37,121 nt of DNA, taken from contig NZ_AQPN01000033.1 of the NCBI RefSeq assembly GCF_000403135.1, forward strand, positions 1 to 37,121. The letters are read 5' to 3'. Under the pieces are notes generated by a model that had not been told where the DNA came from, did no database searches, and saw only the letters and a list, made by a program, of their open reading frames with translations. The position numbers were made by a program, and so were the translations under genes. Below, in pieces: positions 768 to 17,113 of this stretch. Numbering within the stretch: the stretch's first letter is position 1; each line of letters starts with the position of its first letter. The stretch comes from Arcticibacter svalbardensis MN12-7 (GTDB lineage: Bacteria; Bacteroidota; Bacteroidia; Sphingobacteriales; Sphingobacteriaceae).

Positions 768-1898
768 CTACTTATACAAATTAAGTTTACTGGCTTCTTT
801 CTGAAAAATAGTTTGTGGAAGGTTATAAAACCGCATAAAATCGGGCGCAGATGCGTGTCCTTTATAAGGAACATAATACTCAGTTGATTTATCACCTGGT
901 TTATACCCGGCATTTCTCCAGAAGAGGGTATACGCAAAATGATGTCCGCTGAATGCTTTAGCTACTGCTTCTGTAAACCATTTAGAATAAGGAATTTTCG
1001 AAAAGCCCATTTCAGCAACAGCAGGAATCTTATTCTTTTCTTTGGCTACCGCCTCGATAATAGTCAGATGATGGTCAAGATCCTTAATAAAGGCACTATC
1101 GATTTCCGCTTTACCACCTTGATAGGTATCAAATGAAACGACATCAATCAGATCGTCCCCAGGGTAACGCTCCAGAAACTGTTCTGCGTTATTAAACTCT
1201 CCGCCTGTATTATATACATACAACAGATTATGAACCTGTTTTACATCTCTCAGCTACTTCACCGTATACTGAAATAAGGTTTTAAATTCGTCTACCGAAG
1301 AACTCTTTGCTCCCCACCAAAACCATCCTCCTGTTAATTCATGTAAGGGTCTGAATAAAACAGGAATTAATTCACCTTTTGGACCTTTCAGACTCAATAG
1401 AAAATGTGCTATTTTATCCAGTTGCGCTTGATAGACGTCATGCTTTTCAGCACCGGGAAGTATAGCTGCAACAGTTCCAGGAGTTGGATCCCATGCTGTT
1501 TTGCCTGTATAGGGATTTGTTCCATGCCAGCTGATCGTAATTACACCACCCCGGCGATAGCCTTCCTCAATATAATGCCTCATCTTATCAAATGGAACAC
1601 TATCCAGATTCATCTTTGCACCAAGCTCTAATCCTCCTAATTCCCAACCATATAAGGCTGGATAATCACCTGTTACATCTTTGATATCACTTCTACCCGG
1701 CTTATATTTCCAGTTCACTCCATATGCAAGAGCTCCCTGATGGCCAACCAGATACCCTTTTTTCATTACATTTTTCAGATTAGTATAAAGATTGACGGTC
1801 TCTTTGGTAGCTTTTGCATCTGATGGTTTCACCGGCTGGGCATCACTATTAAAGTAGCATAACAGGAACGAAAAAAAAAATAATATACTGCTTCTCAT
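768..1898 (-). pseudogene. GH26 beta-mannanase gene interrupted by an in-frame TAG
   Basis: Two minus-strand open stretches (1898 to 1257 and 1253 to 768) lie in the same frame and are separated only by a TAG codon at 1256-1254, codon 215. Read through, they make one 376-codon protein of normal length for a secreted single-domain GH26 endo-beta-1,4-mannanase. Residues 1-20 are a signal peptide. LFRPLHELTGGWFWWG carries the family acid/base Glu (E187), and PAVAEMGF carries the nucleophile Glu (E296 in read-through numbering). The truncated product keeps the acid/base but loses the nucleophile, so it should be inactive. Codons after the stop resume at once with LRDVKQVHNLLYVYNTGG, typical of the family, so no sequence is missing. 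One base change in a tyrosine codon (TAT or TAC to TAG) is the simplest explanation. A recent mutation, a base error, or suppression of TAG are the alternatives. No SusCD pair adjoins it. Confidence 0.85.
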
Positions 1899-2411: not shown

Positions 2412-2800
2412 CGGAATCAAAGAATATTAATTTCCCTGATTGCAAAGCCATTGCTATACATTTCAACACAATATCCTTCTTATAAAATCCTTTTTCGAGA
2501 AATAAAAGCCACTTGAACATCAATCTCTTCAAAAAACACTCATAAAATAAATAAAAAGAAAGAATTATTACCAAATACGAATTCAAATATCTAAAAATCA
2601 GCTTTTCAATTCATTTTTTAATCCAAAATAAAAAATAAACTTCATTTTATTAGTTTAAAGAGATTAATTACTTAAATATTGATCAATATATATTCTATTT
2701 CATATATAAATGCTTATTATTGCTATTAAATACTGAAATAATATATTACAAATCGCATATTTATATATTATTTGATCTCAATGCTCTAAAAACAGAAAAC
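2412..2800. other. AT-rich leader of the nirB block, no convincing gene
   Basis: A very AT-rich region upstream of nirB. It holds a minus-strand open frame (2586-2347) rich in F, L, I and K, as expected for chance translation of A/T DNA, and a palindrome at 2676-2689. It most likely carries the promoter of the nirBD operon, but I find no clean match to the TAnnTTTG element in the last 100 nt. Confidence 0.5.
2676..2689. promoter_or_regulatory. Perfect 14-bp palindrome upstream of nirB
   Basis: ATATTGATCAATAT is a perfect inverted repeat 112 nt before the nirB start. It resembles the half-sites of Crp/FNR-family operators (TTGAT...ATCAA) but lacks the usual 4-nt spacer, so it is not a standard FNR box. 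Binding by a nitrogen or redox regulator is only a guess; short AT-rich palindromes also arise by chance. Confidence 0.3.
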
Positions 2801-5305
2801 ATGACAACAACAAAGCCCGCTGTAGTTATTATTGGAAATGGAATGGTGAGTTATAAGTTTTGTGAAAAGCTTATTGCTAAATCTTCCAACTTTGAAATTA
2901 TCGTATTTGGAGAAGAATCCCGTCCTGCTTATGACAGGGTTCATTTGAGTGAATATTTTAATGGAAAGTCAGCCGAAGATCTTTCGATGTCACCATTAAC
3001 CTGGTATGCGGATAATGGCATACATCTTCACCTCAACGATCCTGTTCAGGAAATCAACCGGGAAGAAAAAACCGTACATACATTAAAAGGAATCAATCAG
3101 CATTACGATTACCTGATACTAGCAACGGGCTCATCTGCTTTTGTTCCAGATATTCCGGGAGTTGAAAAGCAAGGTGTATTTGTATATAGAACCATTGAAG
3201 ATCTTGACCTGATATTAGCTTATGCGGCAAATGCAAAGGAGGCTGCTGTAATAGGTGGCGGACTTTTAGGACTTGAAGCAGCCAAAGCATTAATTGACCT
3301 GGGAATAAAAGAGCCTCATGTGATTGAGTTTGCTCCTCGCTTGATGCCAAGACAAATTGATCAGGCTGGAAGCAAAATGTTGCAAATGAAGTTAAATGAA
3401 TTAGGGCTAAGGATTCATTTAAACAAAAGCACATCGCGCATTGGCGGAGAGGACAAAATAGATGCATTACATTTTGCGGACGACACGCAAATCCATGTAG
3501 ATATGCTGATCATCTCGGCAGGGATTCGTCCCAGAGATGAACTAGCACAACTTTCCGGACTAAAAACAGGCACACGAGGTGGCGTAGTTGTAAATGATTA
3601 CATGCAAACAAGTGACGAAAGCATTTTTGCGATAGGAGAATGTGCCCTGCATGAAGGGATGATTTACGGTCTTGTTGCACCCGGTTATGAGATGGCCGAT
3701 GTTGCTGTAAACACGTTATGCGATAGCGAAAAAAGCTTCAGCGGTTACGATATGAGCACAAAATTAAAACTCATCGGTATTGATGTAGCCAGTTTCGGAG
3801 ATCCTTTTATTGCTGAACCCGATTGCAGATCCATTGTTATGGACGACAGCCATAAGGGTGTTTATAAACGGATTAACATTAGCAACGACGGCAAGCACCT
3901 ATTGGGAGGAATCCTGGTTGGCGATGCAACATCATACAATATGCTGCTGCAAACGGTTAAAAACAACATCATATTACCACCTAATCCTGAAGATTTAATT
4001 TTAGGCTCAAGAGGCGAATCGGCAAATGACGGTTCAGGTGCGATGTCCCTTCCTGATGATGCTTTAATCTGCTCTTGCGAATCAGTAAGTAAAGGAGCAA
4101 TCCTTCATGCGGTTAAAGAAGATCACATCACTACACTGGATGGTATTAAAAAATGCACTAAAGCAGGAACATGCTGTGGAGGATGCGTACCGATGGTAAA
4201 AGACCTGATTGCAGGTTCATTAAAAGAAAGCGGGATCTACGTAAAAAATGTAATCTGCGAACATTTCAACTATTCACGTCAGGAACTGCTTGATGTCATC
4301 AAAATAAATAATGTAAAGATTTACGATGAGGCGTTGGATCATTTTGGAAAAGGTGATGGATGCGAAACCTGTAAACCTGTTGTAGCGAGTATCCTTTCCA
4401 GTTTATGGAATGATGTGATCGTAAAACAAGCCCCTACTCAGGATAGCAATGACCGCTACCTGGCCAATATTCAAAAGGGAGGCACTTACTCTGTGGTTCC
4501 CCGCATTCCTGGTGGTGAAATCACTCCTGATAAACTGATTATATTAGGTCAGATTGCTAAGAAATATGCTTTATACACTAAGATTACAGGTGGTCAACGA
4601 ATCGATATGTTCGGCGCACATGTAAATGACCTGCCTGATATCTGGGAAGAGCTGATTGATGCCGGTTTTGAAAGCGGACATGCCTATGGAAAAGCATTAC
4701 GTACGGTAAAAAGTTGCGTTGGAAGCACATGGTGCCGGTTTGGCCTTCATGACAGTGTTTCTTTTGCTATTGAAATAGAAGAACGTTACCGTGGAATCAG
4801 AGCGCCACACAAGATAAAAGGTGGTGTAAGCGGATGTGTCAGGGAATGCGCAGAAGCACAGTCCAAGGACTTTGGGATCATTGCTACTGAAAAAGGATGG
4901 AATTTATATATCTGCGGAAATGGCGGTTCTAAACCTCAGCATGCACAACTTTTAGCTAGTGATATCGATAAAGAAACCTGCATTAAATACATCGATCGCT
5001 TCCTGATGTTCTATATTAAAACAGCAGACCCGCTCACGCGTACTGCAACCTGGTTGAATAAAATGGAAGGCGGCCTGACCTATTTGAAAAATGTAATTCT
5101 GAATGACAGCATTGAAATTTGCGGACAATTAGAAACAGAAATGCAAGGCTTGGTTGACAGCTTCCATTGCGAATGGAAGGAAGTAGTGACCAATCCCGAA
5201 CTAAGAAAACGTTTCGTACACTTTGTTAATGCCCCTGAAAAGAAAGACCCAACAGTAGAATTTGACACCTTCAGAACTCAGATAAAAGCTAAAGACTGGT
5301 TATAA
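2801..5305 (+). CDS. nirB: NADH-dependent assimilatory nitrite reductase, large subunit
   Basis: This 834-residue siroheme enzyme reduces nitrite to ammonium in the cytoplasm with NADH. Domains in order: FAD/NADH disulfide-oxidoreductase module (about 1-400; VVIIGNGMVSYKFCEKL for FAD, AVIGGGLLGLEAAKAL for NADH, IFAIGECALHEG as the second FAD motif); BFD-type [2Fe-2S] domain (C424, C426, then KCTKAGTCCGGC) with a second cysteine pair further on (CETCKP); then the nitrite/sulfite reductase ferredoxin-like and catalytic domains. The siroheme/[4Fe-4S] ligands are CVGSTWC (C639, C645) and CVREC (C679, C683). Length fits NirB. The frame stays open upstream to 2720, but the ATG at 2801 is chosen because the FAD motif then falls at the usual distance from the N-terminus. 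nirD follows 24 nt later. No siroheme synthase gene is present in the window. Confidence 0.96.
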   Translation: MTTTKPAVVIIGNGMVSYKFCEKLIAKSSNFEIIVFGEESRPAYDRVHLSEYFNGKSAEDLSMSPLTWYADNGIHLHLNDPVQEINREEKTVHTLKGINQHYDYLILATGSSAFVPDIPGVEKQGVFVYRTIEDLDLILAYAANAKEAAVIGGGLLGLEAAKALIDLGIKEPHVIEFAPRLMPRQIDQAGSKMLQMKLNELGLRIHLNKSTSRIGGEDKIDALHFADDTQIHVDMLIISAGIRPRDELAQLSGLKTGTRGGVVVNDYMQTSDESIFAIGECALHEGMIYGLVAPGYEMADVAVNTLCDSEKSFSGYDMSTKLKLIGIDVASFGDPFIAEPDCRSIVMDDSHKGVYKRINISNDGKHLLGGILVGDATSYNMLLQTVKNNIILPPNPEDLILGSRGESANDGSGAMSLPDDALICSCESVSKGAILHAVKEDHITTLDGIKKCTKAGTCCGGCVPMVKDLIAGSLKESGIYVKNVICEHFNYSRQELLDVIKINNVKIYDEALDHFGKGDGCETCKPVVASILSSLWNDVIVKQAPTQDSNDRYLANIQKGGTYSVVPRIPGGEITPDKLIILGQIAKKYALYTKITGGQRIDMFGAHVNDLPDIWEELIDAGFESGHAYGKALRTVKSCVGSTWCRFGLHDSVSFAIEIEERYRGIRAPHKIKGGVSGCVRECAEAQSKDFGIIATEKGWNLYICGNGGSKPQHAQLLASDIDKETCIKYIDRFLMFYIKTADPLTRTATWLNKMEGGLTYLKNVILNDSIEICGQLETEMQGLVDSFHCEWKEVVTNPELRKRFVHFVNAPEKKDPTVEFDTFRTQIKAKDWL

Positions 5306-5329: not shown

Positions 5330-5704
5330 ATGATAATAAATACGGATATAGAATTACAAGCTGAGGCTTCAATTGAATGGTTTTTGGCTTGCAATGAAGA
5401 AGATGTACCTGAAAATGGAGGAGCATGTATTGATTACAAGGGCGAACAAATTGCCATCTTTAATTTTACACGCCGCAAGGAATGGTATGCCACACAAAAT
5501 CTTTGTCCCCATAAACAACAAATGGCACTGTCAAGAGGTATGATTGGCAGTGCGGGAGAAAGCTGTGAACCTAAAGTTGCCTGTCCCTTTCATAAAAAAA
5601 CATTCTCACTTTTGAGCGGAGAATGCGCATCAGGAGAAGATTATACCATAAAAACATATCCGGTAAAACTTTCCGCGGGTCAAGTGTTTATCGGGATACA
5701 ATAA
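5330..5704 (+). CDS. nirD: Nitrite reductase small subunit, Rieske-type
   Basis: A 124-residue NirD-type protein, the small partner of NirB. It has the Rieske fold: the first ligand loop is NLCPHKQQMAL and the second is ACPFHKKTF, so both Cys-x-His pairs are kept (CPH and CPFH). Many NirD proteins have lost the cluster ligands; this one appears to keep all four, so it may hold a [2Fe-2S] cluster. It lies 24 nt after nirB and 29 nt before the moaC/moaB fusion, consistent with one transcript. The N-terminus from 5330 is the first ATG after the nirB stop and gives a normal family length. Confidence 0.93.
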   Translation: MIINTDIELQAEASIEWFLACNEEDVPENGGACIDYKGEQIAIFNFTRRKEWYATQNLCPHKQQMALSRGMIGSAGESCEPKVACPFHKKTFSLLSGECASGEDYTIKTYPVKLSAGQVFIGIQ

Positions 5705-5733
5705 CCCTGATAAATTTTACCAATATTTGTTCC

Positions 5734-6684
5734 ATGCGCGATATAACCGGCAAGCAGATTACATTAAGAACAGCGAGGGCGGTAGCTGTAATTTTCTGTT
5801 CAGCAGAAACCACCGAACTCATTAAAAACAATCAGTTGCCTAAGGGCAATTTGTTTGACGTTGCCCGCGCTGCCGGTTTCATAGGAGCAAAACTAACACC
5901 ACAACTTCTGCCCCACTGCCATCCGGTTTCCATTGATGGCATGGAGATCTCGTTCAGCTTTCTCTCCTCAGAAGAGCACCAGGAACATTTTGAACCCTCC
6001 GTATTGGAACGACAAGGCATTGTCATTTTAGGAACGGCAAAATCTATTGGACGAACCGGCATAGAGATGGAAATGCTTACAGCCGTTTCTGTTGCTGCAC
6101 TCGAAATTTACGACATGTTAAAACCGGTAGATACTGCCCTGGAGATCGGTCATATTAAACTTCTGGAGAAACGTGGAGGTAAAAGCGACCGCAAAAACTT
6201 CTTTAAAACTTCTTCCACTTGTGCTATTCTGGTTTGTTCAGACTCTACAGCAGCCGGTAAACGGGAAGACAAAAGTGGTAAGCTCATTCAGGAAAAGCTC
6301 GAATTAATTAATGCACAAGTTGTAGATTATAAAATAGTTGCTGATAATAAGGATGAGATCCAGAAGCAAATAAAAGAATGGGTGGCCGATGATGTACACT
6401 TCATATTTACTACCGGAGGAACAGGATTAGGTCCTCGTGATCATACTGTTGAAGCGGTGAAAGAAATCCTGGAACGCGATGCAGATGGAATTACAGAGGC
6501 AATGCGTGCTCACGGACAACTGCGCACTCCCTTAGCCATGATGAGTCGTGCAGTAGCCGGTTCAATAGCTCAAACTTTAATTATCACCCTTCCGGGAAGC
6601 AGTAATGGGGCTTCAGAATCATTAGAAGCCATTTTACCAGCTGTATTTCATGCACGTAAGATGATGAAAGGAGGAGGACACTAA
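5734..6684 (+). CDS. moaCB: MoaC-MoaB fusion for molybdopterin synthesis
   Basis: A 316-residue two-domain protein. Residues 1-150 are MoaC, which with MoaA turns GTP into cyclic pyranopterin monophosphate: KGNLFDVARAAGFIGAK, LLPHCHPV and GIEMEMLTAVSVAALEIYDM match the MoaC signature regions. Residues 160-316 are a MoaB/MogA domain, which adenylylates molybdopterin before metal insertion: FIFTTGGTGLGPRDHTVEA and LPGSSNGASESLEAI. The two activities act early and late in the pathway, with MoaD/MoaE between them. The frame is open upstream to 5623, inside nirD, but ATG 5734 begins at the normal MoaC N-terminus (MRDITGKQ), 29 nt after the nirD stop. The same fusion is common in Bacteroidota. moeA starts 3 nt after its stop. 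Confidence 0.93.
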   Translation: MRDITGKQITLRTARAVAVIFCSAETTELIKNNQLPKGNLFDVARAAGFIGAKLTPQLLPHCHPVSIDGMEISFSFLSSEEHQEHFEPSVLERQGIVILGTAKSIGRTGIEMEMLTAVSVAALEIYDMLKPVDTALEIGHIKLLEKRGGKSDRKNFFKTSSTCAILVCSDSTAAGKREDKSGKLIQEKLELINAQVVDYKIVADNKDEIQKQIKEWVADDVHFIFTTGGTGLGPRDHTVEAVKEILERDADGITEAMRAHGQLRTPLAMMSRAVAGSIAQTLIITLPGSSNGASESLEAILPAVFHARKMMKGGGH

Positions 6685-6687
6685 ATT

Positions 6688-7884
6688 ATGATCAGCTTTC
6701 CCGATGCTTTAGCCGCTATTAACGTTCTTGCAAAACCTTTTGATAAAGAATTCTGCCCGCTTGAAGATGCAGACGGAAGGATTTTAGCGGATAACTGCTT
6801 TGCGGACCGCAATTACCCTCCCTTTAACCGGGCAGCCATGGATGGCTACGCCATCATGTATAACGATTGGGAAAATGGGTTAAGAGAATATAAAATCACG
6901 GAGGTAATCTATGCAGGTCAGGCATCGGAACAAACCATACATTCCGGTTATTGCTATAAAATCATGACTGGTGCAACTACACCTCCTTTAGCCACCGTAA
7001 TTATCAGGCGGGAAGATTCCATAGAACAAGATAACGTAGTAACACTGAAAGGTGAATCTCTAAAACCCTATCAGAATATAGCCAGAGAAGGGGAAGATGC
7101 AAAAGCTGGAGCTTTAATTTTAGAAGCACCCTTACGCTGCGAGCCTCAGATTATCAGCCTGTTGACTTCCATAGGTAAAACACAAGTGTCGGTTTATAAA
7201 CTACCAAAAGTTGCTGTAATTACAACAGGTAATGAAGTAGTTAAGCCAGATGAACCGATTGCCGCATTTCAAATACGAAATAGCAATCAATACCTACTCC
7301 GCGCTCTGTTGAAGAAATGGAATATTAACGAACCGGTTTGTATCCATGTTCAGGATAACAAAGACGCTTTAAGAGAGACTCTTCAGCAAGCTATTTTATC
7401 GGATATCACAATCATTAACGGAGGTGTTTCAGCTGGAGATGCAGATTACGTTCCACAAATCTTACATGAACTGGGGGTAAAAGAAATCTTTCATCAAGTG
7501 GCTATGCGGCCGGGTAAGCCTATCTGGACCGGAAAATCCCCATCAGGAGGAATGGTCTTTGCCCTTCCGGGAAACCCACTATCCTGTCTTACTACTTTCA
7601 CTCTTTTTATTGAATCATATCTTTATAAAAGCTTTGGGTTTAAAGAAAGAATTCCCTACAAACTTCCTCTCCTTGAAAACAGAAGCAAAAAAAACAAGCT
7701 AACTGAGTTTTTCCCGGTACGAATAGCTACTGAACAATTTGGACTTCATCTTGTAAAACACAATGGCTCGGGAGATATCACTGCTGGATTACATGCAAAC
7801 GGATTAGCAGTACATGCTGCTGAAAAAGAAAGCATAGTAAGTGGCGAGCCTATTGACTTTTATCCTTTTAACAACTATTTATAA
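6688..7884 (+). CDS. moeA: Molybdopterin molybdenumtransferase
   Basis: A 398-residue MoeA, which inserts molybdate into adenylylated molybdopterin. Signature segments: FNRAAMDGYAI near residue 50, VAVITTGNEVVKPDE near 180, INGGVSAGDADYVP near 250, AMRPGKPIWTG near 275 and FALPGNPLSCLTTF near 295. Length is normal for the family (about 400). The ATG is 3 nt after the MoaC-MoaB stop, so translation is probably coupled. It is the last gene of the first block; a 565-nt gap separates it from narK, and I see no strong terminator hairpin after it. Confidence 0.95.
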   Translation: MISFPDALAAINVLAKPFDKEFCPLEDADGRILADNCFADRNYPPFNRAAMDGYAIMYNDWENGLREYKITEVIYAGQASEQTIHSGYCYKIMTGATTPPLATVIIRREDSIEQDNVVTLKGESLKPYQNIAREGEDAKAGALILEAPLRCEPQIISLLTSIGKTQVSVYKLPKVAVITTGNEVVKPDEPIAAFQIRNSNQYLLRALLKKWNINEPVCIHVQDNKDALRETLQQAILSDITIINGGVSAGDADYVPQILHELGVKEIFHQVAMRPGKPIWTGKSPSGGMVFALPGNPLSCLTTFTLFIESYLYKSFGFKERIPYKLPLLENRSKKNKLTEFFPVRIATEQFGLHLVKHNGSGDITAGLHANGLAVHAAEKESIVSGEPIDFYPFNNYL

Positions 7885-8449: not shown

Positions 8450-9760
8450 ATGATGACTGAAAACTTCAACCCCTTAAACAAACTAAATATCTTTTCCACA
8501 AAGGGTATTCAAATGCGAACCTTCCACATTACATGGATCACCTTCTTTTTCTGTTTCTTTGGATGGTTTGGAGTGGCTCCACTGATGCCATTAATTCGCG
8601 AACAGCTACACTTAAGCAAGGATCAGATTGGTAATATCATTATTGCATCCGTTTCAGCTACTATTGTTGCCCGGTTAATAATCGGTAAACTTTGCGACAC
8701 ATTAGGTCCCCGCTTATCCTACACTATACTTCTTGCAGTTGGCGCGATTCCTGTCATGTGCATAGGTCTCAGTAACAGCTACGAGAGTTTCTTACTCTTC
8801 CGTTTTGTCATCGGTATTATTGGCGCCTCATTTGTCATCACCCAATTTCATACTTCTATGATGTTTGCCCCCTCTGTAGTTGGCACTGCCAATGCAGTTA
8901 CTGGTGGCTGGGGAAACCTTGGAGGAGGGGTCACCAACTTAGTCATGCCCTTAATAGCTGCCGGATTTGCCGGATTAGGCTTAGTAAGTCATGCTGATTC
9001 ATGGCGTTTAGCCATGGTCGTTCCCGGAGTGATCCTGTTAATTATGGCTGTCATTTATTATAAATACACCAAGGATACTCCACAAGGGAACTTTTCTGAC
9101 CTGCATAAAACTGCAAAAAAAGAAAAGAAAGGCACCTTTTTATTGGCAATGAAAGACTATCGTACCTGGATCCTGGCATTAGCATACGCCGCTTGTTTTG
9201 GTATAGAGATTACGGTGGATAACGTTGCAGCAACCTTTTTCATGGATCGTTTTGGTACCACAATGATTGTAGCAGGTGCACTTGCCAGCATATTTGGTGG
9301 CATGAACATCTTCGCAAGAGCTTTAGGAGGTTATGTGAGTGATAAAGTGGGCAAGTCTTATGGATTAAAAGGTAAAGGACTCCTTTTGGGGGGTATGCTT
9401 GTTCTTGAAGGAATTGGCATCACGCTCTTTGCACAATCTCAAAGTTTAGGGATGGCAATTGCCTGCATGTTACTCTTCGCCTTATTCCTGAAAATGGCCA
9501 ATGGAAGCACCTATGGCATTGTTCCTTTTATCAATAAAGATGCCATCGGATCGGTTAGTGGCATTGTAGGTGCAGGTGGAAATCTAGGCGCTATGCTGGT
9601 AGGATTTCTATTCAAATCGGCCAGTCTGACCTATGCGGATGCCTTTCACTATATCGGCATTGGCGTGTTAGTCATAGGAATAATCGTATTCATTACCAAG
9701 TTTCACATAAGGCAGACAGCTGAAACAAATATCTTACAACCGGCACTTCAAGAGGCCTGA
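8450..9760 (+). CDS. narK: Nitrate/nitrite transporter, MFS family
   Basis: A 436-residue, 12-helix major facilitator of the nitrate/nitrite porter family, importing nitrate and/or exporting nitrite across the inner membrane. Both family signatures are present: GGWGNLGGGVTNLVMPLI in the first half and GIVGAGGNLGAM in the second, and conserved arginines lie in FRFVIGIIGAS and IFARALGGYVSDK. The N-terminal segment LNIFSTKGIQMRTFHITW is typical of the family, so the early start at 8450 (or the adjacent ATG at 8453) is preferred to the internal ATG at 8513. It is the first gene of the second nitrate block, followed 27 nt later by the nitrate reductase gene. Confidence 0.95.
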   Translation: MMTENFNPLNKLNIFSTKGIQMRTFHITWITFFFCFFGWFGVAPLMPLIREQLHLSKDQIGNIIIASVSATIVARLIIGKLCDTLGPRLSYTILLAVGAIPVMCIGLSNSYESFLLFRFVIGIIGASFVITQFHTSMMFAPSVVGTANAVTGGWGNLGGGVTNLVMPLIAAGFAGLGLVSHADSWRLAMVVPGVILLIMAVIYYKYTKDTPQGNFSDLHKTAKKEKKGTFLLAMKDYRTWILALAYAACFGIEITVDNVAATFFMDRFGTTMIVAGALASIFGGMNIFARALGGYVSDKVGKSYGLKGKGLLLGGMLVLEGIGITLFAQSQSLGMAIACMLLFALFLKMANGSTYGIVPFINKDAIGSVSGIVGAGGNLGAMLVGFLFKSASLTYADAFHYIGIGVLVIGIIVFITKFHIRQTAETNILQPALQEA

Positions 9761-9787: not shown

Positions 9788-12700
9788 ATGTCTGTGGAGA
9801 AAGATAAAATATTTAAAAGTACCTGTTGTTACTGTGGAGTGGGATGCGGAGTAGACGTTACCGTTAAAAAAAACAATACCGTTACTGTGGTTGGCGATAA
9901 AGATCACCCGGTTAATCGTGGCATGTTGTGCAGCAAAGGCATGAATCTGCAATACACGGTAAATGATGTAAGTGACCGGCTCCTTTATCCTCAGATGCGT
10001 TATAATAAAAACCTGCCCTTACAAAGGGTGAGCTGGGATGATGCACTAAACCGTACTGCAGCAGTATTTAAGACTTTCATCGATAAATATGGACCAGACT
10101 CGGTTGCTTTTTATGCTTCCGGACAGTGTTTAACTGAAGAATACTATGTAATCAATAAACTAATCAAAGGATTCATCGGTAGCAATAATATCGACACCAA
10201 CTCTCGTTTATGTATGAGCAGTGCAGTTACTGCTTATAAAATGTCCCTGGGTGAAGATAGTGTTCCGGTATGTTATGATGATATTGAGTTAGCCGACTGC
10301 CTCTTTGTTACAGGAGCTAACCCGGCATGGTGTCATCCTATATTATGGCGACGGGTGGAAGCGCATAAAGCAGCTCATCCGGAAGTAAAAATCATTATCG
10401 TTGATCCGCGTATTACGGATACCTGTGGGATCGCTGATTTACATTTACAGCTTAATCCAGGCACTGATATCACCCTAAACCATGCTATTGGAAGAGTTCT
10501 GATAGAAAACGGCGCTATTGACCTGGAATTTATAACCCTTCATGCAGAAGGTTTTGACAGCTACCGGGAGCTTGTATTTGAACGTACACTTGCTGAGTCG
10601 GCATTAATCTGTGGCGTTGATGAGGAAAATATCCGATTAGCCGCTACCTATATAGGCGCAGCAAAAGGCTTTTTAACCATGTGGACCATGGGACTCAATC
10701 AAAGTTCCGTTGGCGTAAATAAAAATTTAAGTCTGATTAACCTGAATCTGATTACCGGACATATTGGTAAACCAGGTTCGGGACCTTTCTCTTTAACCGG
10801 ACAACCTAATGCCATGGGCGGTCGTGAAGTTGGTGGTTTAGCCAATCTGCTTCCTGCGCATCGTGATCTGGCGAATGAAGAACACCGTAAAGAAGTTCAA
10901 AAATTCTGGGGAGGCACAACTATTTCTGATAAAGCAGGACTTACAGCAACAGAGATGTTTGAAGCATTACATGACGGAAGGCTGAAAGCAATCTGGATTC
11001 TTTGCACCAATCCCTTAACTAGTCTTCCTAATTCACGTTTTGTTGAAGAAGCGCTAAAAAAAGCAAAGTTTGTAGTCGTTCAGGAAGTAAGCAACACAGT
11101 AGAATCATTACAATATGCAGATGTAATTTTACCTGCGGCAGCCTGGACAGAGAAGGAAGGCACTATGACTAATTCCGAAAGGCGCATCAGTCATTTAAAT
11201 AAAATCATTGATGCTCCAGGAGAAGCACTATCAGATGCAGAAATAATTTGCATGTTTGCCAGAAAAATGGGGTATAAAGGATTTGACTATGCCAACATGG
11301 AGGAGATCTACAAAGAACATGCAAAACTAACCTCTAAAACTAATATTAATATTAACGGACTGGATTACAAGTTACTCCAGAAGCACAACACCCTTCAATG
11401 GCCTTTTAATAAAAAGACAGAGATGGGAACAAAGCGTTTGTTTACCAATCACTTATTTTATACTCCTAGTAAAAAAGCAGTCATATATAGTCCCTCCGAT
11501 CAGCTGAACAGTGAAATGCCTGATCAGGATTACCCTTTTATTCTGACTACCGGCCGCGTTCGTGATCATTGGCATACCATGAGCAAAACAGGTAAAGTAA
11601 GTAAGTTGAAGCAACACACGAAAGAAGCCTTTCTGGAAATTCACCCTGAAGATGCGGAAGCAATTAAAATCGAAGACAACCAGATCGTGATTGTACGTTC
11701 CCGACGTGGTGAAGTACAAGTACGGGCAAAAGTGACTACAACAATAAAAAAAGGAGTAGTATTTCTGCCTATGCATTGGGGTAAAATTCTGGGTAACGAC
11801 CTCAACCGTGCTAACAATATTACCAGTAACCTGATTGACCCACTCTCAAAAGAACCTGATTTTAAGTTCTGTGCGGTACAGGTAGAAAAGTTCATAAAAC
11901 CCTTTCAAAAGATTGTCATCATTGGTGCAGGTGCAGGTGCTTTTGGCTTTGTCAAATCCTGCAGAGAGATCAATAAAGAAGATCAAATAATCATCTTCAG
12001 CAAGGAAAACTTTCCTTTTTACAACCGGGTGATGCTTCCCGACTACATTAGCGGGACGCAGCACTGGGAACAACTGGTAAAAATGAAGGATGATGAAGAG
12101 CCGGAATACAACATACGTCTTTTAAGAGGGGTAAGTGTAGAAAGCATCAACAGAACGGAAAAATATGTGATTGATTCCAGGGGACAAAAAACGGAGTATG
12201 ATGTATTGATCATGGCGACTGGTAGTCGGGCAGCATTACCTAAAAACGTTCCCTCCTTGCCAGGCATCTTCACGATGCGTAGCCGTGTAGACGCAGATAA
12301 CTTTAAAAAACATACCCCGAAAAACGCTCATGTCCTTATTGTAGGAGGTGGTTTATTAGGTTTAGAAATGGCGGCATCTTTAAGGGAAACCGGTGTAAAA
12401 ATCACCATCGTACAACGTGTATCGCGATTCCTTAACCGACAATTGGATCCTCTGGGAAGTCAGCTTTTGCACGAAGAAATGGTAGACCAGGGATGCGATA
12501 TTTATTACAACGATGAAGTGCAGCTTTATTATGGCCGATCCAAACTAACAGGAATAGGACTTAAAAGCGGACGCAAGATCAGCTGCGATGCCATGATTAT
12601 TGCCATTGGTACTACGCCTAATATTGAACTGGCAAGAGCATGCGGATTAGAATGCAAACGTGGTGTGATTGTTAATGAACGACTGCAAACCAGTGATCCG

Positions 12701-13303
12701 GCAATTTACGCCATTGGAGAGATTGCAGAATTCAAGGGTATCTTATATGGAATAACAGCAGCAGCAGAACAACAAGCCGATATCGTAGCCAAATACATGA
12801 ACGGCGATATCAGCAGCTATTATAAAGGCAGCCTTTTTATGAACATCATTAAAATACATGGATTTGACCTCTGTAGTATTGGTTTGCCCGAGTGTCCTGA
12901 TGATAAAAATTACGAAGAAATTGTTTTTATTGATAAAGCCAAGCGGTACTATAAAAAGTGCATCATCCATCAGGATCGTTTAGTAGGCACTATTTTAATT
13001 GGCGACAAGAGTGAATTCCAGGAATTCAGGTCGCTTATCGCCAACAAAACAGAGTTAAGCGACAAGCGGTTGCTTTTACTTAGAAGTGGACAAATAGCAG
13101 AACCTGTTTCCGGAAAACTGATATGCAGCTGCAACAATGTGGGCCTTGGGAACTTACAAACGAAGATCGCTAAAGGTTGCCATGACTTTAATGAATTATG
13201 TACTTCAACAGGTGCCGGAACAGGATGTGGATCATGCCGTCCGGAAGTTAAACGCATACTAGAAGACGCTTTGAAAGAAGAACTTCTTGAAAATATAAGC
13301 TAA
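9788..13303 (+). CDS. nasA: Assimilatory nitrate reductase fused to an NADH/FAD reductase module
   Basis: A 1171-residue fusion. Residues 1-700 are a NasA/NapA-type molybdopterin oxidoreductase: [4Fe-4S] ligands C13, C16, C20 and C48 (CCYCGVGC and LCSKG), and NSRLCMSSAV with C142 as the expected Mo ligand. From about residue 705 a second enzyme begins: KIVIIGAGAGAFGF (FAD), VLIVGGGLLGLEMAASL (NADH) and IYAIGEIAEF, the same fold as the N-terminal part of NirB. The end (about 1110-1160) is a BFD-type [2Fe-2S] domain with C1113, C1115 and a C-terminal GCGSC. In many bacteria these parts are separate NasA/NasC and NasB chains; here NADH, FAD, Fe-S and Mo chemistry sit on one chain, so it should reduce nitrate to nitrite with NADH without a separate reductase subunit. 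No Tat or Sec signal is visible, so it is cytoplasmic. The next gene starts 1 nt after its stop. Confidence 0.93.
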   Translation: MSVEKDKIFKSTCCYCGVGCGVDVTVKKNNTVTVVGDKDHPVNRGMLCSKGMNLQYTVNDVSDRLLYPQMRYNKNLPLQRVSWDDALNRTAAVFKTFIDKYGPDSVAFYASGQCLTEEYYVINKLIKGFIGSNNIDTNSRLCMSSAVTAYKMSLGEDSVPVCYDDIELADCLFVTGANPAWCHPILWRRVEAHKAAHPEVKIIIVDPRITDTCGIADLHLQLNPGTDITLNHAIGRVLIENGAIDLEFITLHAEGFDSYRELVFERTLAESALICGVDEENIRLAATYIGAAKGFLTMWTMGLNQSSVGVNKNLSLINLNLITGHIGKPGSGPFSLTGQPNAMGGREVGGLANLLPAHRDLANEEHRKEVQKFWGGTTISDKAGLTATEMFEALHDGRLKAIWILCTNPLTSLPNSRFVEEALKKAKFVVVQEVSNTVESLQYADVILPAAAWTEKEGTMTNSERRISHLNKIIDAPGEALSDAEIICMFARKMGYKGFDYANMEEIYKEHAKLTSKTNININGLDYKLLQKHNTLQWPFNKKTEMGTKRLFTNHLFYTPSKKAVIYSPSDQLNSEMPDQDYPFILTTGRVRDHWHTMSKTGKVSKLKQHTKEAFLEIHPEDAEAIKIEDNQIVIVRSRRGEVQVRAKVTTTIKKGVVFLPMHWGKILGNDLNRANNITSNLIDPLSKEPDFKFCAVQVEKFIKPFQKIVIIGAGAGAFGFVKSCREINKEDQIIIFSKENFPFYNRVMLPDYISGTQHWEQLVKMKDDEEPEYNIRLLRGVSVESINRTEKYVIDSRGQKTEYDVLIMATGSRAALPKNVPSLPGIFTMRSRVDADNFKKHTPKNAHVLIVGGGLLGLEMAASLRETGVKITIVQRVSRFLNRQLDPLGSQLLHEEMVDQGCDIYYNDEVQLYYGRSKLTGIGLKSGRKISCDAMIIAIGTTPNIELARACGLECKRGVIVNERLQTSDPAIYAIGEIAEFKGILYGITAAAEQQADIVAKYMNGDISSYYKGSLFMNIIKIHGFDLCSIGLPECPDDKNYEEIVFIDKAKRYYKKCIIHQDRLVGTILIGDKSEFQEFRSLIANKTELSDKRLLLLRSGQIAEPVSGKLICSCNNVGLGNLQTKIAKGCHDFNELCTSTGAGTGCGSCRPEVKRILEDALKEELLENIS

Positions 13304-13304
13304 C

Positions 13305-14800
13305 ATGGAAGGGAAAGAAACGACGATATATACCATAAAGGTTAATCTTCCAGGAGGTATTGTATCTGTAGGAGATTTCTATGAAATCCTTAAGGCTGCT
13401 GAAAAGGCAGGCATTGATACCGTTCGGTTTGGAAACAGACAACAACTTTACCTTCAGGTTAGCCCGAAAAGCTGGAAGATCTGGAGCATCATTTCTTTAT
13501 TTCAGACACTGAATATGAGATAAACACAGATGAATTCCCAAATATTATCAGCTCTTATGTTGCAGAAGATATCTTTGATAGTTCAACATGGTTGCGTGAA
13601 GGGGTATATAAAGATATTTTAGATGCCTTTAACTACAAGCCCGAACTTAAGATTAACCTGGTAGACAGCACTCAGACCTTTGTGCCCTTCTTTACCGGGA
13701 ACCTTAATTTCATCTCCTCTGACGTCAGCAATTACTGGTACCTCTATATTCGTTTCCCTAAAACAAATCAGATCTATTGCTGGTCATCGCTCATTTATTC
13801 CGAAGATATCAGCTCGCTAAGCAAACAGGTAGAAAGTTCAATTCTTCTTGATAGTGATATTTTCTATGACCAGGAAAATATCGATGGGCAGCTATTGGAA
13901 ACTAAAGTCAATTCAGCAGTAAACTTCTTTCTTCAACCCCTTTCTGTTCCTCTGAAACATCCCGATTTCCAGCTGCCTTATTACGAAGGATTCAACAAGT
14001 ACAATGACAAACACTGGCTGGGGATCTATCGGAGGAATGAACTATTCTCGGTAGCCTTCTTAAAGGACATCTGCACCATTTGCATGAAAACCAGGATTGC
14101 CCAAATTTACACTACAACCTGGAAGTCTATCATTATTAAAGGAGTAGAAGCAAACGACAGAAAGTTATGGAATGTCATATTGGGAAAACACCGGATCAAT
14201 GTACGACATGCATCAAATGAGTTAAACTGGCAAAGTGAGGATCTTTGTAACTATGCGCTGGACCTAAAACTAGAGTTGATCAAAGAATTTGACAAAGTAG
14301 ATCTCCGGACATTTAAACTTTGTTTTGCCATCAAGATCAATCCAAAGACAGGTTTATTTGGTTCAGTCATCATCAGGAAACATCCTTCAGAAAAGGATTC
14401 AACGGATCTTATAGCAGATCAGTTCGATGTGCTGCATACCGTAGACTTCAACCCTAATTCTAAAAATTTTATTCCTTATAAAGAAAATATTTCACGAGAT
14501 TTACTCAGCAAGATTTTAATTGAACTATCCGATTACTATTATCAGCAACAAGCCATTACAGATACGAACACGGGGGATACTTATTTTGAAGAGGATACGT
14601 TCATCATTACAGAAGAAGCGCAAGTACTTGTTTATCAATGCACACATTGCCTGAGTATTTATGATGAATCAGTTGGTGATGCATACAACAACATTCAGCC
14701 GGATACTCTTTTTAAGGATTTGGATCCTGAGTACTGTTGTCCGGTTTGTGAATATGGTAAGAACGATTTTATAGCTATTGACAAAACAATCCTTGCTTAA
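13305..14800 (+). pseudogene. Nitrite/sulfite reductase-like protein with C-terminal rubredoxin, frameshifted
   Basis: The ATG at 13305 opens a frame with a nitrite/sulfite reductase ferredoxin-like half-domain (VNLPGGIVSVGDFYEIL, DTVRFGNRQQLYLQVS). After S53 the frame goes wrong and stops at 13523. Another frame carries on without a gap: PEKLEDLEHHFFISDTEYE and onwards to 14800. One missing base in the CCC run at 13463-13465 explains it; restoring it gives 498 residues. The restored protein has a second NiR-like half but no CxxxxxC/CxxxC siroheme cluster ligands, and ends in a rubredoxin domain (QCTHC and CCPVCEYG). It is probably a redox carrier or assembly partner of the nitrate/nitrite enzymes rather than a reductase; this is inference from position and cofactors. 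A -1 ribosomal slip at CCGAAAA would give the same protein, but a base error or a true lesion is more likely. It sits 1 nt after the nitrate reductase. Confidence 0.8.
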
Positions 14801-14845: not shown

Positions 14846-15808
14846 ATGGTGGAAATCAGAGATGAATTGGGCAGGTCTTTCAAAACACTCCGGATAAGTT
14901 TGCTTAATACCTGCAACCTTGCCTGTGTGTATTGTAGCTGTGGAAATGAAGACAGCAAGCAAAATCATATCCTGGCAAAAGATAAGTCTTTAACCGCCAC
15001 TGAGCTCTTGGCTCTTGTTAAACAGCTTCATGAACGATTAAACCTGACTACAGTGCGCTTTACCGGTGGCGAGCCTTTATTATATAAAAACCTTGCAGAG
15101 CTTGTGGAAGGCGTTCATGACCTGGGTATTAACGACCTTAAACTGACTACAAATGCTTTATTACTGGAGCGCCTTAGTCCGTTGTTAAAGGCTGCAGGAC
15201 TAAAATCCATCAACATTTCTCTGGATGCCATTGATCCATTGATATTTTTTCAAATGAGCAGACGTCATGATCTGACCCGCACATTAAAAGGCATAGATGC
15301 AGCCTTACAACAGGGAATTGAAGTCAAGATCAATTCAGTAATTATGAAAGGGCTCAACGACAACCAGATCATACCCCTATTAAACTTTGCTTTTGAAAGA
15401 GGATTAACCATTCGGTTTTTGGAAATTATGTCTATGGGACATCTCTATGAAAATTCAGATGAACATTTCTTTTCCCAGGAGGATATATTGCAGTTAATCA
15501 GTAAGCATCATACCTTTGTGCCCTTGCTGCGTACCTCCTCTTCAACCGCTAATTACTGGCAAACAACAGATGGCAACCGTTTTGGTATTGTAGCCAATGA
15601 AAGTCAGCCATTTTGTTCCGATTGCAACCGTTTAAGACTGGATACTTTTGGCAATATATACGGCTGTTTAAGCAGCAACCATCCTGTACCAATTAAAGAA
15701 GTCCTTAACCCAATAGAGCTGGAAGGCAAGATCAAAGAAGCACTGGCACAGAAACAAGCTCTAAAATTTACAGGAAGCACATTAAGTATGCTTCATATCG
15801 GAGGATAA
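14846..15808 (+). CDS. moaA: GTP 3',8-cyclase, radical SAM
   Basis: A 320-residue MoaA that starts molybdenum cofactor synthesis by rearranging GTP, with MoaC completing cyclic pyranopterin. The SAM-binding [4Fe-4S] motif is CNLACVYC (C23, C27, C30), followed by VRFTGGEPLL. The C-terminal GTP-binding cluster ligands are in FCSDCNRLRL and, 13 residues on, the Cys of IYGCL. The chain ends in GG, as functional MoaA proteins do. It follows the disrupted rubredoxin-type gene by 45 nt and precedes moaD by 4 nt. Confidence 0.95.
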   Translation: MVEIRDELGRSFKTLRISLLNTCNLACVYCSCGNEDSKQNHILAKDKSLTATELLALVKQLHERLNLTTVRFTGGEPLLYKNLAELVEGVHDLGINDLKLTTNALLLERLSPLLKAAGLKSINISLDAIDPLIFFQMSRRHDLTRTLKGIDAALQQGIEVKINSVIMKGLNDNQIIPLLNFAFERGLTIRFLEIMSMGHLYENSDEHFFSQEDILQLISKHHTFVPLLRTSSSTANYWQTTDGNRFGIVANESQPFCSDCNRLRLDTFGNIYGCLSSNHPVPIKEVLNPIELEGKIKEALAQKQALKFTGSTLSMLHIGG

Positions 15809-15812
15809 ACCC

Positions 15813-16046
15813 ATGAAAATAGAAGTATTCGCAATCTTAAAAGACTATTTTAAAAAGGAATTTGAAATTGCAGATCAACTTGATACCATTGCTGACTTGA
15901 AACAACATTTAATTGCCATCAACCCTTCTTCAGTAGAAGTACTTTCAAGATGTCGTTTCGCTGTAGAGGATGATTTCGTGGTTGATAGTTATAAAATAAC
16001 AAGGAACGATAACATCATGATCATTCCCCCAAGCAGTGGAGGCTAA
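15813..16046 (+). CDS. moaD: Molybdopterin synthase sulfur carrier subunit
   Basis: A 77-residue ubiquitin-fold sulfur carrier. It ends in IIPPSSGG; the terminal Gly-Gly is adenylylated and thiocarboxylated to supply sulfur to molybdopterin synthase. Size and ending are diagnostic. No MoeB-type activating enzyme is encoded in the window. It starts 4 nt after moaA and its stop is 1 nt from the moaE ATG. Confidence 0.92.
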   Translation: MKIEVFAILKDYFKKEFEIADQLDTIADLKQHLIAINPSSVEVLSRCRFAVEDDFVVDSYKITRNDNIMIIPPSSGG

Positions 16047-16047
16047 T

Positions 16048-16515
16048 ATGAAATACATTACAGAAGAACCTATTGATTTAGTGGGAATGCTGCAAGAGAC
16101 CCATCATCCGGCAGCGGGTGCAATTGTATTATTCAGTGGTGAAGTGAGGGATCATAATGGAGGAAAATCTGTTGCCTACCTGGAGTATGAATCGCAAATT
16201 TCCATGGCTTCCAAAATGATCGCCCTTATTTTAGAAGAAGCTAAAAGCCGCTGGAACTTAACAATTGCTACAGCACAACATCGCATCGGAAAGGTAAAAG
16301 TTTGTGAGTCGGCAGTAGTGGTATTAACCGCCTCTCCCCACCGTACAGAAGCTTATGCCAGCAACCGGTATATCATCGACCGCATCAAACACGAAGTGCC
16401 AATCTGGAAATGCGAATACTTTACTGATGGCACCAAAGAATGGGGTGGAAATTGTAATTGCCATAAGGAGACTGGTGATGTGAATAAACATATTTATGAA
16501 TCAGAAAATCCATAA
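16048..16515 (+). CDS. moaE: Molybdopterin synthase catalytic subunit
   Basis: A 155-residue MoaE, the large subunit that uses the MoaD thiocarboxylate to make molybdopterin. Conserved segments: GAIVLFSGEVRDHNGGKSV near the N-terminus, HRIGKVKVCESAVVV, ASPHRTEAY and IKHEVPIWKCE, which carries the catalytic lysines. The ATG at 16048 lies 1 nt after the moaD stop and is preferred to an in-frame GTG at 16036 that overlaps moaD. Its end overlaps the mobA start by 20 nt. Confidence 0.94.
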   Translation: MKYITEEPIDLVGMLQETHHPAAGAIVLFSGEVRDHNGGKSVAYLEYESQISMASKMIALILEEAKSRWNLTIATAQHRIGKVKVCESAVVVLTASPHRTEAYASNRYIIDRIKHEVPIWKCEYFTDGTKEWGGNCNCHKETGDVNKHIYESENP

Positions 16516-17113
16516 AACCAAAAGCCTTTTAATCAATGAAATCCTTGGAGTAGTTCTATGCGGAGGCGAAAGCAAGAGAATGGGAAGCGACAAAGGGCTT
16601 CTTACACTGCCTGGAACAACCCAAACATGGGCACAACAAGTAGCAGAAATACTTTTTAATTGCAATCTTCCCTTAGTTATTTCGATTAACAAAACCCAGC
16701 ATTCGTCTTATAGTCCCATCTTTCCATCAGAGCACCTCATTCTGGACCAAATCAACGTAAGAGGCCCCTTAAACGGTTTACTAAGTGTGCATCAAGCACA
16801 TCCCGGAAAGGACCTGTTACTTATTGCCTGCGATATGATCCAAATGGATCAGGAAACATTAAACCAATTAATAGCGATCTACCAAGAGAATCCCGAATTT
16901 GATTATTACGTTTATGAGCAAGATAAATTTCTTGAACCTTTATGTGCCATCTATACCTTCAAAGCATTAGATGCGATTATGAAAAGACTCGATACGAATG
17001 AATTAACATCCTTTGCATTACATAAAGTGATCTCTTCCTCCAATTACAAAAGCATACCTGTTAAAGATAAAAGGGCGTTCACTAATTACAATACAAGGGA
17101 TCTTACTTCATAA
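16496..17113 (+). CDS. mobA: Molybdenum cofactor guanylyltransferase
   Basis: A 205-residue nucleotidyltransferase that adds GMP to molybdenum cofactor to make the MGD form, which NasA-type nitrate reductases need. The nucleotide-binding motif is LCGGESKRMGSDKG (residues 21-34); LLIACDMIQMD matches the metal-binding Asp region, and GPLNGLLS lies between them. The start overlaps the end of moaE by 20 nt, indicating translational coupling. Its presence fits the bis-MGD enzyme encoded in the same operon. Confidence 0.92.
   Translation: MNQKIHKTKSLLINEILGVVLCGGESKRMGSDKGLLTLPGTTQTWAQQVAEILFNCNLPLVISINKTQHSSYSPIFPSEHLILDQINVRGPLNGLLSVHQAHPGKDLLLIACDMIQMDQETLNQLIAIYQENPEFDYYVYEQDKFLEPLCAIYTFKALDAIMKRLDTNELTSFALHKVISSSNYKSIPVKDKRAFTNYNTRDLTS

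Follow-up and report, generated by a model that had tools for sequence, protein, structure and literature searches.

The window considered here, i.e. the whole stretch of DNA that was analysed, is a single contig of 37,121 bases from the near-complete genome (4.69 Mb) of Arcticibacter svalbardensis MN12-7. It harbours a nitrate assimilation cluster consisting of NirB, NirD, molybdenum-cofactor genes, an MFS transporter, a fused NADH nitrate reductase (NR) and a protein that combines a nitrite/sulfite reductase (NiR/SiR) scaffold with a rubredoxin, for which we use the name RubNiR. The features of the cluster, with the evidence on which each was assigned, are the following.

2795..5305, + strand: NirB, NADH nitrite reductase large subunit (PF07992, PF18267, two PF04324, PF03460, PF01077)
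5330..5704, + strand: NirD-type Rieske small subunit (PF13806)
5623..7884, + strand: molybdenum-cofactor genes (translations; relatives in RubNiR loci)
8450..9760, + strand: MFS transporter (PF07690)
9788..13303, + strand: NR, with molybdopterin/Fe4S4, FAD/NADH (NADH:rubredoxin-reductase type), Rubredoxin_C and BFD [2Fe-2S] parts (Pfam)
13305..14800, + strand: RubNiR gene, cluster-less NiR/SiR scaffold with C-terminal rubredoxin, frameshifted here (ORF reading, Pfam, intact 497-aa orthologue)
13305..13472, + strand: RubNiR piece 1, first NIR_SIR_ferr half-domain (PF03460, E 7.5e-8; tblastn of orthologue residues 1-56)
13463..14800, + strand: RubNiR piece 2, remaining scaffold and rubredoxin in the other frame (tblastn of orthologue residues 54-497)
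14072..14083, + strand: C-x-x-C of the scaffold, C257/C260 of the orthologue (conservation among relatives)
14633..14770, + strand: rubredoxin domain with Fe(Cys)4 site (PF00301, E 1.4e-12; four cysteines in 79/79)
14846..17113, + strand: molybdenum-cofactor genes 3' of RubNiR (translations; relatives in RubNiR loci)

The listed ORF of NirB begins at a TTG at position 2720. Judged by its context, the MFS transporter would be of the nitrate/nitrite type (NarK). The molybdenum-cofactor genes at 5623..7884 are presumably MoaC/MogA-like and MoeA-like, and those at 14846..17113 we take to be MoaA-, MoaE- and MobA-like. The stop codon of NR occupies positions 13301-13303 and the ATG of RubNiR starts at 13305, leaving the gap of 1 nt that a first-pass annotation of this DNA had reported.

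In the window, RubNiR is spread over two frames, with the change at about 13455-13490. An intact RubNiR of 497 aa is present in Arcticibacter eurypsychrophilus (L003/L024/L151; 93% identity), and the 498 residues given earlier for the restored protein agree with it to within one residue. In the comparison with A. eurypsychrophilus, dN/dS amounts to 0.055 for piece 1 (50 codons) and 0.072 for piece 2 (435 codons), the neighbouring genes giving 0.051 (NR), 0.054 (transporter), 0.062 (MoaA-like) and 0.142 (MoeA-like). Among the window genes comparable with this species, RubNiR is the sole one split between frames. Since intact copies exist and dN/dS lies at 0.055-0.072, RubNiR was constrained until very recently and the break is recent, or else it is a sequence error. 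A programmed frameshift was rejected, RubNiR being one open frame in relatives. That RubNiR is an ordinary pseudogene or annotation noise with no function of note, as the frameshifted copy and a second gene with an in-frame stop on the contig might suggest, is very improbable and was rejected for the family in view of 448 related stretches in genome_contigs, dN/dS values like those of the neighbouring genes and open frames in relatives.

Two genes on the contig are broken, i.e. RubNiR by its frameshift and a glycosidase-like gene (768-1898, minus strand), by reading presumably GH26-like, by an in-frame stop between the ORFs 1254-1898 and 768-1223. The latter gene is open in A. eurypsychrophilus (L151 2716-3846, 92% identity).

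Fold and cofactor sites of RubNiR

When the two pieces of the window copy were scanned separately, PF03460 (NIR_SIR_ferr) was matched by piece 1 with E 7.5e-8 and PF00301 (rubredoxin) by piece 2 with E 1.4e-12, and a second PF03460 stayed below the threshold (E 0.2). Both families were matched in 79/79 aligned relatives, in agreement with the earlier placement of a rubredoxin at the C-terminal end, and PF01077, the 4Fe-4S siroheme domain, did not appear in the list of families that these 79 RubNiR members hit at E 0.01. An AlphaFold2 model based on the intact 497-aa orthologue and 78 relatives (alignment A2) reached a pLDDT of 88.1 and a pTM of 0.78, with a low-confidence linker at residues 424-436. 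Residues 12-418 of this model matched the E. coli sulfite reductase hemoprotein 4htr with Z 28.3 and 3.0 A over 374 residues (1aop, Z 27.8), the body (about 10-420) M. tuberculosis NirA with Z 24.6 and plant nitrite reductases with Z about 24, and the C-terminal part (about 440-492) rubredoxin 1rdg with Z 9.6. By structure comparison, the complete two-repeat NiR/SiR fold is therefore present in the model. The first-pass annotation had postulated NiR half-domains and had named a predicted structure devoid of them as grounds for giving up the idea; both halves were found.

The profile alignment of RubNiR with CysI and four NirA sequences runs end to end (401 columns, E 9e-4), with a probability of only 22.6%, and a sequence search of the PDB returned rubredoxin-bearing chains and one RecA, with no NiR/SiR among the 60 of 71 matches listed. 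Because the profile-profile probability is low, the link to the NiR/SiR family rests on the fold, the Pfam matches and the motifs together.

The ligands of the [4Fe-4S]/siroheme centre, i.e. C-x5-C followed by C-x3-C, were found in 0/80 RubNiR relatives (the best 80 of 448), and no C-x3-C was present in the scaffold of 28 divergent members, a set drawn from other families and another class. The NirB of the window keeps the pattern, as read from its translation, and the loss of the cluster cysteines in RubNiR, to which attention had been drawn at the outset, extends to the family. Judging from these alignments, the missing ligands mean that RubNiR has no canonical [4Fe-4S]-siroheme centre, which is a narrower claim than the absence of siroheme.

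The rubredoxin retains its four cysteines in 79/79 aligned relatives and in 27/28 divergent members. Within the scaffold, the only near-invariant cysteines are those of the C-x-x-C motif (257/260), each of which is present in 78/79 of the closer set and in 28/28 of the divergent set. R45, Q46, N80, S84, N118, Q124, G132, N135, E228, G229, W238, E306 and T336 are likewise fixed in 28/28 divergent members, and H302 is found in 79/79 relatives and 27/28 divergent members. In the profile alignment, R45-Q46 fall on CysI R117-Q118. As for CysI R83, R153, K215 and K217, which we take to be the substrate-anion quartet, R83 and K217 are kept in kind, the former as K12 (K in 79/79 relatives, R/K in 27/28 divergent members) and the latter as K116 (K/R in 79/79 and 27/28), while half of the quartet is gone, because the positions of R153 and K215 are taken by P79 and G114. 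Since many positions and the C-x-x-C stay fixed even in divergent members, the sequences indicate that the scaffold has been reworked rather than left to drift.

The cluster region cannot be placed with certainty: an alignment by eye puts CysI C434, C440, C479 and C483 on H302, N308, C340 and K344, and hhalign arranges them differently. In neither register do all four cysteines, or even two well-conserved ones, coincide with the CysI ligands. A candidate metal site formed by C257, C260, C315 and C340 looked attractive in close relatives, but is weakened by the divergent members, of which only 3/28 and 7/28 retain C315 and C340, respectively.

A lone C-x5-C around the scaffold CxxC is seen in 12/28 divergent members, eleven of them from family f41 and one from f15 (L116-L123, L125, L126, L129, L130). 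The extra cysteines could form a second metal site in these two lineages.

Compared with a catalytic siroheme reductase, RubNiR has the fold and lacks the cysteine pattern, the full anion quartet and PF01077; compared with a rubredoxin, it has both the two CxxC motifs and the rubredoxin fold. The family, which is real and conserved, is best called an emptied NiR/SiR scaffold with an electron carrier.

RubNiR shares with the siroheme reductases CysI and NirA (PF03460 and PF01077) the two-repeat fold in its entirety (Z about 23 to 28), but differs from them in the absence of the [4Fe-4S] ligand pattern, in an undetected PF01077, in an identity of about 9-16% and in the added rubredoxin. Unlike NirB, it consists of PF03460 and PF00301 only, without FAD/NADH and BFD domains, and a separate real NirB is present. 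Among described proteins, NIRFU, a prasinophyte NiR-rubredoxin-FNR fusion described from sequence, likewise joins a NiR-type body to a C-terminal rubredoxin in nitrate assimilation; NIRFU, however, is described as homologous to ferredoxin-nitrite reductases (53% to a tomato NiR) and has an extra reductase domain, whereas RubNiR has neither cluster ligands nor an FNR/reductase domain (PMC5344333). A scaffold with a C-terminal rubredoxin is also found in the flavorubredoxin NorV, whose NADH reductase NorW is reported to belong to the NirB superfamily (PMC6033852), although NorV has a flavodiiron core and therefore another fold. In Clostridium perfringens, a rubredoxin is reported to function in electron transfer for nitrate reductase (PMC2940859), but there it is a separate small protein without a NiR scaffold.

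The first-pass annotation also took RubNiR for an undescribed component, which is almost correct. A rubredoxin is mentioned among these genes in the descriptions of two Aquirufa species, one of which places it in an operon of rubredoxin, nitrate reductase, nitrite reductase and MFS transporter, and by this operon content the protein is very probably RubNiR (PMC12528234; PMC10821818). In the accessible portions of these descriptions, and in plasmid records of Hymenobacter and Spirosoma, it bears the name 'rubredoxin' only, the scaffold, the cluster loss and the co-inheritance being absent. Beyond the Aquirufa mentions, a search of the full-text literature, whose coverage mostly excludes subscription journals, found no description of a cluster-less NiR-rubredoxin protein.

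Linkage and co-inheritance with nitrate assimilation

The RubNiR family occurs in many soil and water Bacteroidota, right behind the nitrate reductase. We examined 80 named loci, the best of the 448 related stretches that a search of genome_contigs gave. In 79 of them, NR is the immediate upstream neighbour of RubNiR and has the same orientation, so that the survey of gene neighbourhoods suggested earlier bears out the position of RubNiR behind the fused NR. Of 78 measured NR-RubNiR gaps, 64 do not exceed 50 nt, and among these 64 there are six overlaps of -4. The exception is L049, in which NR lies on another contig of the same MAG, which also has NirB. In many loci, RubNiR is found among molybdenum-cofactor genes.

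Other genes accompany the pair in some loci. A TauE/SafE-type permease directly follows RubNiR on its 3' side in 21/80 loci (two being too short to tell), e.g. at L035 11481-12212, and in L049 RubNiR and the permease stand together, away from NR. In G280 (L140 9648-10436), a gene of 262 residues, nucleotidyltransferase-like by reading, lies between NR and RubNiR.

Co-inheritance was assessed in two samples, i.e. 100 relatives (the window genome included) and 395 genomes spread over Bacteroidota. Full-length RubNiR was found in 21 of the 100 relatives, and fused NR in the same 21; a further genome, G092, matched by its rubredoxin alone. In the 395 genomes, RubNiR was present in 29, fused NR in 33 and NirB in 28, and RubNiR and fused NR occur together in precisely the 28 genomes that have NirB (Fisher tests with relatedness ignored, p about 1e-36 for RubNiR-NR and 5e-42 for RubNiR-NirB), which supports the tie to nitrate assimilation proposed in the first-pass annotation. 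Over both samples, which have two of these genomes in common, the trio of NR, NirB and RubNiR occurs in 47 genomes from nine families (f1, f12, f15, f36, f41, f42, f44, f45 and f58). NirB was matched in 47/47 with E below 1e-120, the NirB search among the 100 relatives being confined to those with RubNiR or in the phylum sample. In all 47, RubNiR lies beside NR (46 by coordinates, G031 by an NR tail on the contig of RubNiR), and NirB lies no more than 15 kb from NR in 38 of them and at another place in the remaining nine.

It had been foreseen that homologues occurring widely without nitrate assimilation genes would speak against a role in this pathway. Only one of the 29 full-scaffold matches in the 395 genomes is of this kind, and it is also devoid of rubredoxin. 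In G217 (L139 267-1556), whose genome has neither fused NR nor NirB, a RubNiR ORF of 429 residues lies near the start of the contig, with no rubredoxin behind it and with its CxxC intact; this remnant is a relic or else has a separate use. The G217 remnant apart, RubNiR is physically tied to NR, yet inherited only alongside NirB.

As regards mobile elements, a scan of viral_contigs for RubNiR as phage cargo revealed no relative. There are four full-length plasmid relatives, all from Bacteroidota (Hymenobacter, Spirosoma and two Persicobacter), of which two are annotated as 'rubredoxin', one has no feature and one belongs to an unannotated record. On these plasmid matches, spread by plasmid to other phyla was rejected, as the full-length ones are all from Bacteroidota and the Massilia and Salmonella matches cover the rubredoxin end only.

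Given the co-inheritance with NR and NirB and the linkage to NR, we are confident that RubNiR is a dedicated component of the NADH-driven nitrate-to-ammonium pathway of Bacteroidota, and genome comparison could hardly make this tie any stronger.

A different arrangement is seen in five genomes (G105, G144, G245, G269 and G308), which possess a fused NR (47-53% identical) and neither RubNiR nor NirB. In 5/5 of their loci (L134-L138), the genes next to NR encode a NirA-like reductase, a flavodoxin and a flavoprotein reductase, with Pfam assignments made for the G105 set. Three of the five NRs were scanned and agree with the NR of the window in their flavin, Rubredoxin_C and BFD domains, and no Fe4S4 domain was detected in the ORF used for G308. 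Considering that NR has its own NADH-FAD-[2Fe-2S] chain and that these five genomes manage without RubNiR, NADH-driven nitrate reduction does not in itself require RubNiR.

All five genomes belong to Bacteroidota outside the class of the window. In L134-L138, the N-terminal parts of the flavodoxin and the flavoprotein reductase resemble each other over about 25 residues, with 64-75% identity in four loci and, in part of L135, 53% over 47 residues, as if both proteins bore a common docking tag. The NR of G269 (L137 8491-11996) matches as two pieces in different frames, which makes it a second broken copy among the genes of this operon, or a sequence error.

Possible roles of RubNiR

Tentatively, and with rather less than even confidence, we favour RubNiR as a docking and electron-transfer protein, i.e. 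a non-catalytic subunit of the NADH-driven nitrate-to-ammonium pathway. Its ancestor would have been a nitrite/sulfite reductase in which the [4Fe-4S]-siroheme ligands disappeared and to which a rubredoxin was added by way of a flexible linker. The NiR-like body may dock on NR and/or NirB, so that the tethered rubredoxin could be reduced, one electron at a time, by the flavin module (NADH:rubredoxin-reductase type) of either enzyme and pass the electrons on within an NR-NirB assembly. The benefit might be, e.g., the supply of the six-electron reaction of NirB or a balance of the two reductases against nitrite build-up. Docking, the direction of electron flow and the benefit are what we infer here.

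This mechanism is favoured because Rubredoxin_C (PF18267) occurs in the flavin module of NR as well as in that of NirB and because there are precedents, i.e. the rubredoxin of C. perfringens mentioned above (PMC2940859) and the NADH:rubredoxin reductases of the NirB superfamily, which are reported to feed free or fused rubredoxins in flavodiiron systems (PMC6033852). The solved relatives of the flavin part of NR include the NirB-family structure 3klj, over nearly the whole length, and the rubredoxin reductase 2v3a. Against it, NR and NirB each possess a complete chain from NADH to the active site, with no evident gap for a rubredoxin to fill, the NR of the five genomes described above is independent of RubNiR, and the near-total linkage would be explained equally well by regulation, maturation or protection. 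The same five genomes also lack NirB, however, which makes the two absences inseparable. It is therefore a better guess that RubNiR serves NirB, or NirB and NR together.

Alternatively, RubNiR may be an enzyme in its own right, its rubredoxin feeding a reworked NiR pocket with basic residues, the CxxC and His302, although we consider this unlikely. Such a pocket might handle a by-product (NO, hydroxylamine or sulfite) or hold a differently ligated siroheme or metal. The pocket motifs that stay fixed despite the loss of the cluster (the invariant R45-Q46 and N80, together with K12, K116 and H302) point in this direction, as do the precedent of flavorubredoxin, a rubredoxin-bearing NO reductase driven by a reductase of the NirB superfamily (PMC6033852), and the reported ability of a NasC nitrate reductase to make NO (PMC4724949). 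RubNiR has, on the other hand, no recognised catalytic cofactor site, the positions of CysI R153 and K215 are lost, and C315 and C340 are kept in only 3/28 and 7/28 divergent members. In a more specific form, which appears rather unlikely, RubNiR would be a new type of redox enzyme or a siroheme carrier, i.e. a NiR fold without [4Fe-4S] whose own rubredoxin is fed by the flavin module of NR, one electron at a time, while the basic pocket, His302 and the CxxC hold a differently ligated cofactor or the substrate.

The maturation of the reductases offers another explanation. As a mimic of NiR, RubNiR might assist in the insertion of siroheme, iron-sulfur or molybdenum cofactor into NirB or NR, which would fit a cofactor-poor look-alike of the target fold, the molybdenum-cofactor genes around RubNiR in many loci and the fact that RubNiR is as tightly tied to NirB as to NR. 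We nevertheless regard a maturation factor as quite unlikely, as an electron carrier is no obvious requirement for insertion and five genomes have NR without RubNiR. Moreover, NirB is not known to need such a protein in bacteria elsewhere, e.g. in E. coli.

It is equally doubtful whether RubNiR holds nitrite and hands it over between NR and NirB, with the rubredoxin acting as a redox sensor or structural site. With the exception of one remnant, RubNiR is indeed found only where NR and NirB coexist, the basic anion pocket is partly kept, and the TauE/SafE permease that directly follows in 21/80 loci is a possible anion exporter. Two of the four anion-quartet residues of CysI are missing, however, and the genes for NR and NirB are unlinked in some of the trio genomes.

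Whichever role applies, nitrate assimilation stands in the textbooks as a pathway of two enzymes, and a third protein is present in all 47 Bacteroidota genomes, from nine families, that were found with this NR and NirB. This third protein is a nitrite reductase minus its catalytic core, plus an electron carrier. Either NADH-driven nitrate assimilation in these bacteria needs an overlooked partner, or a by-product of the pathway needs an enzyme of its own. RubNiR acting as the docking and electron-transfer subunit tentatively favoured above would clearly illustrate how an enzyme can be relegated to an accessory role inside its own pathway.
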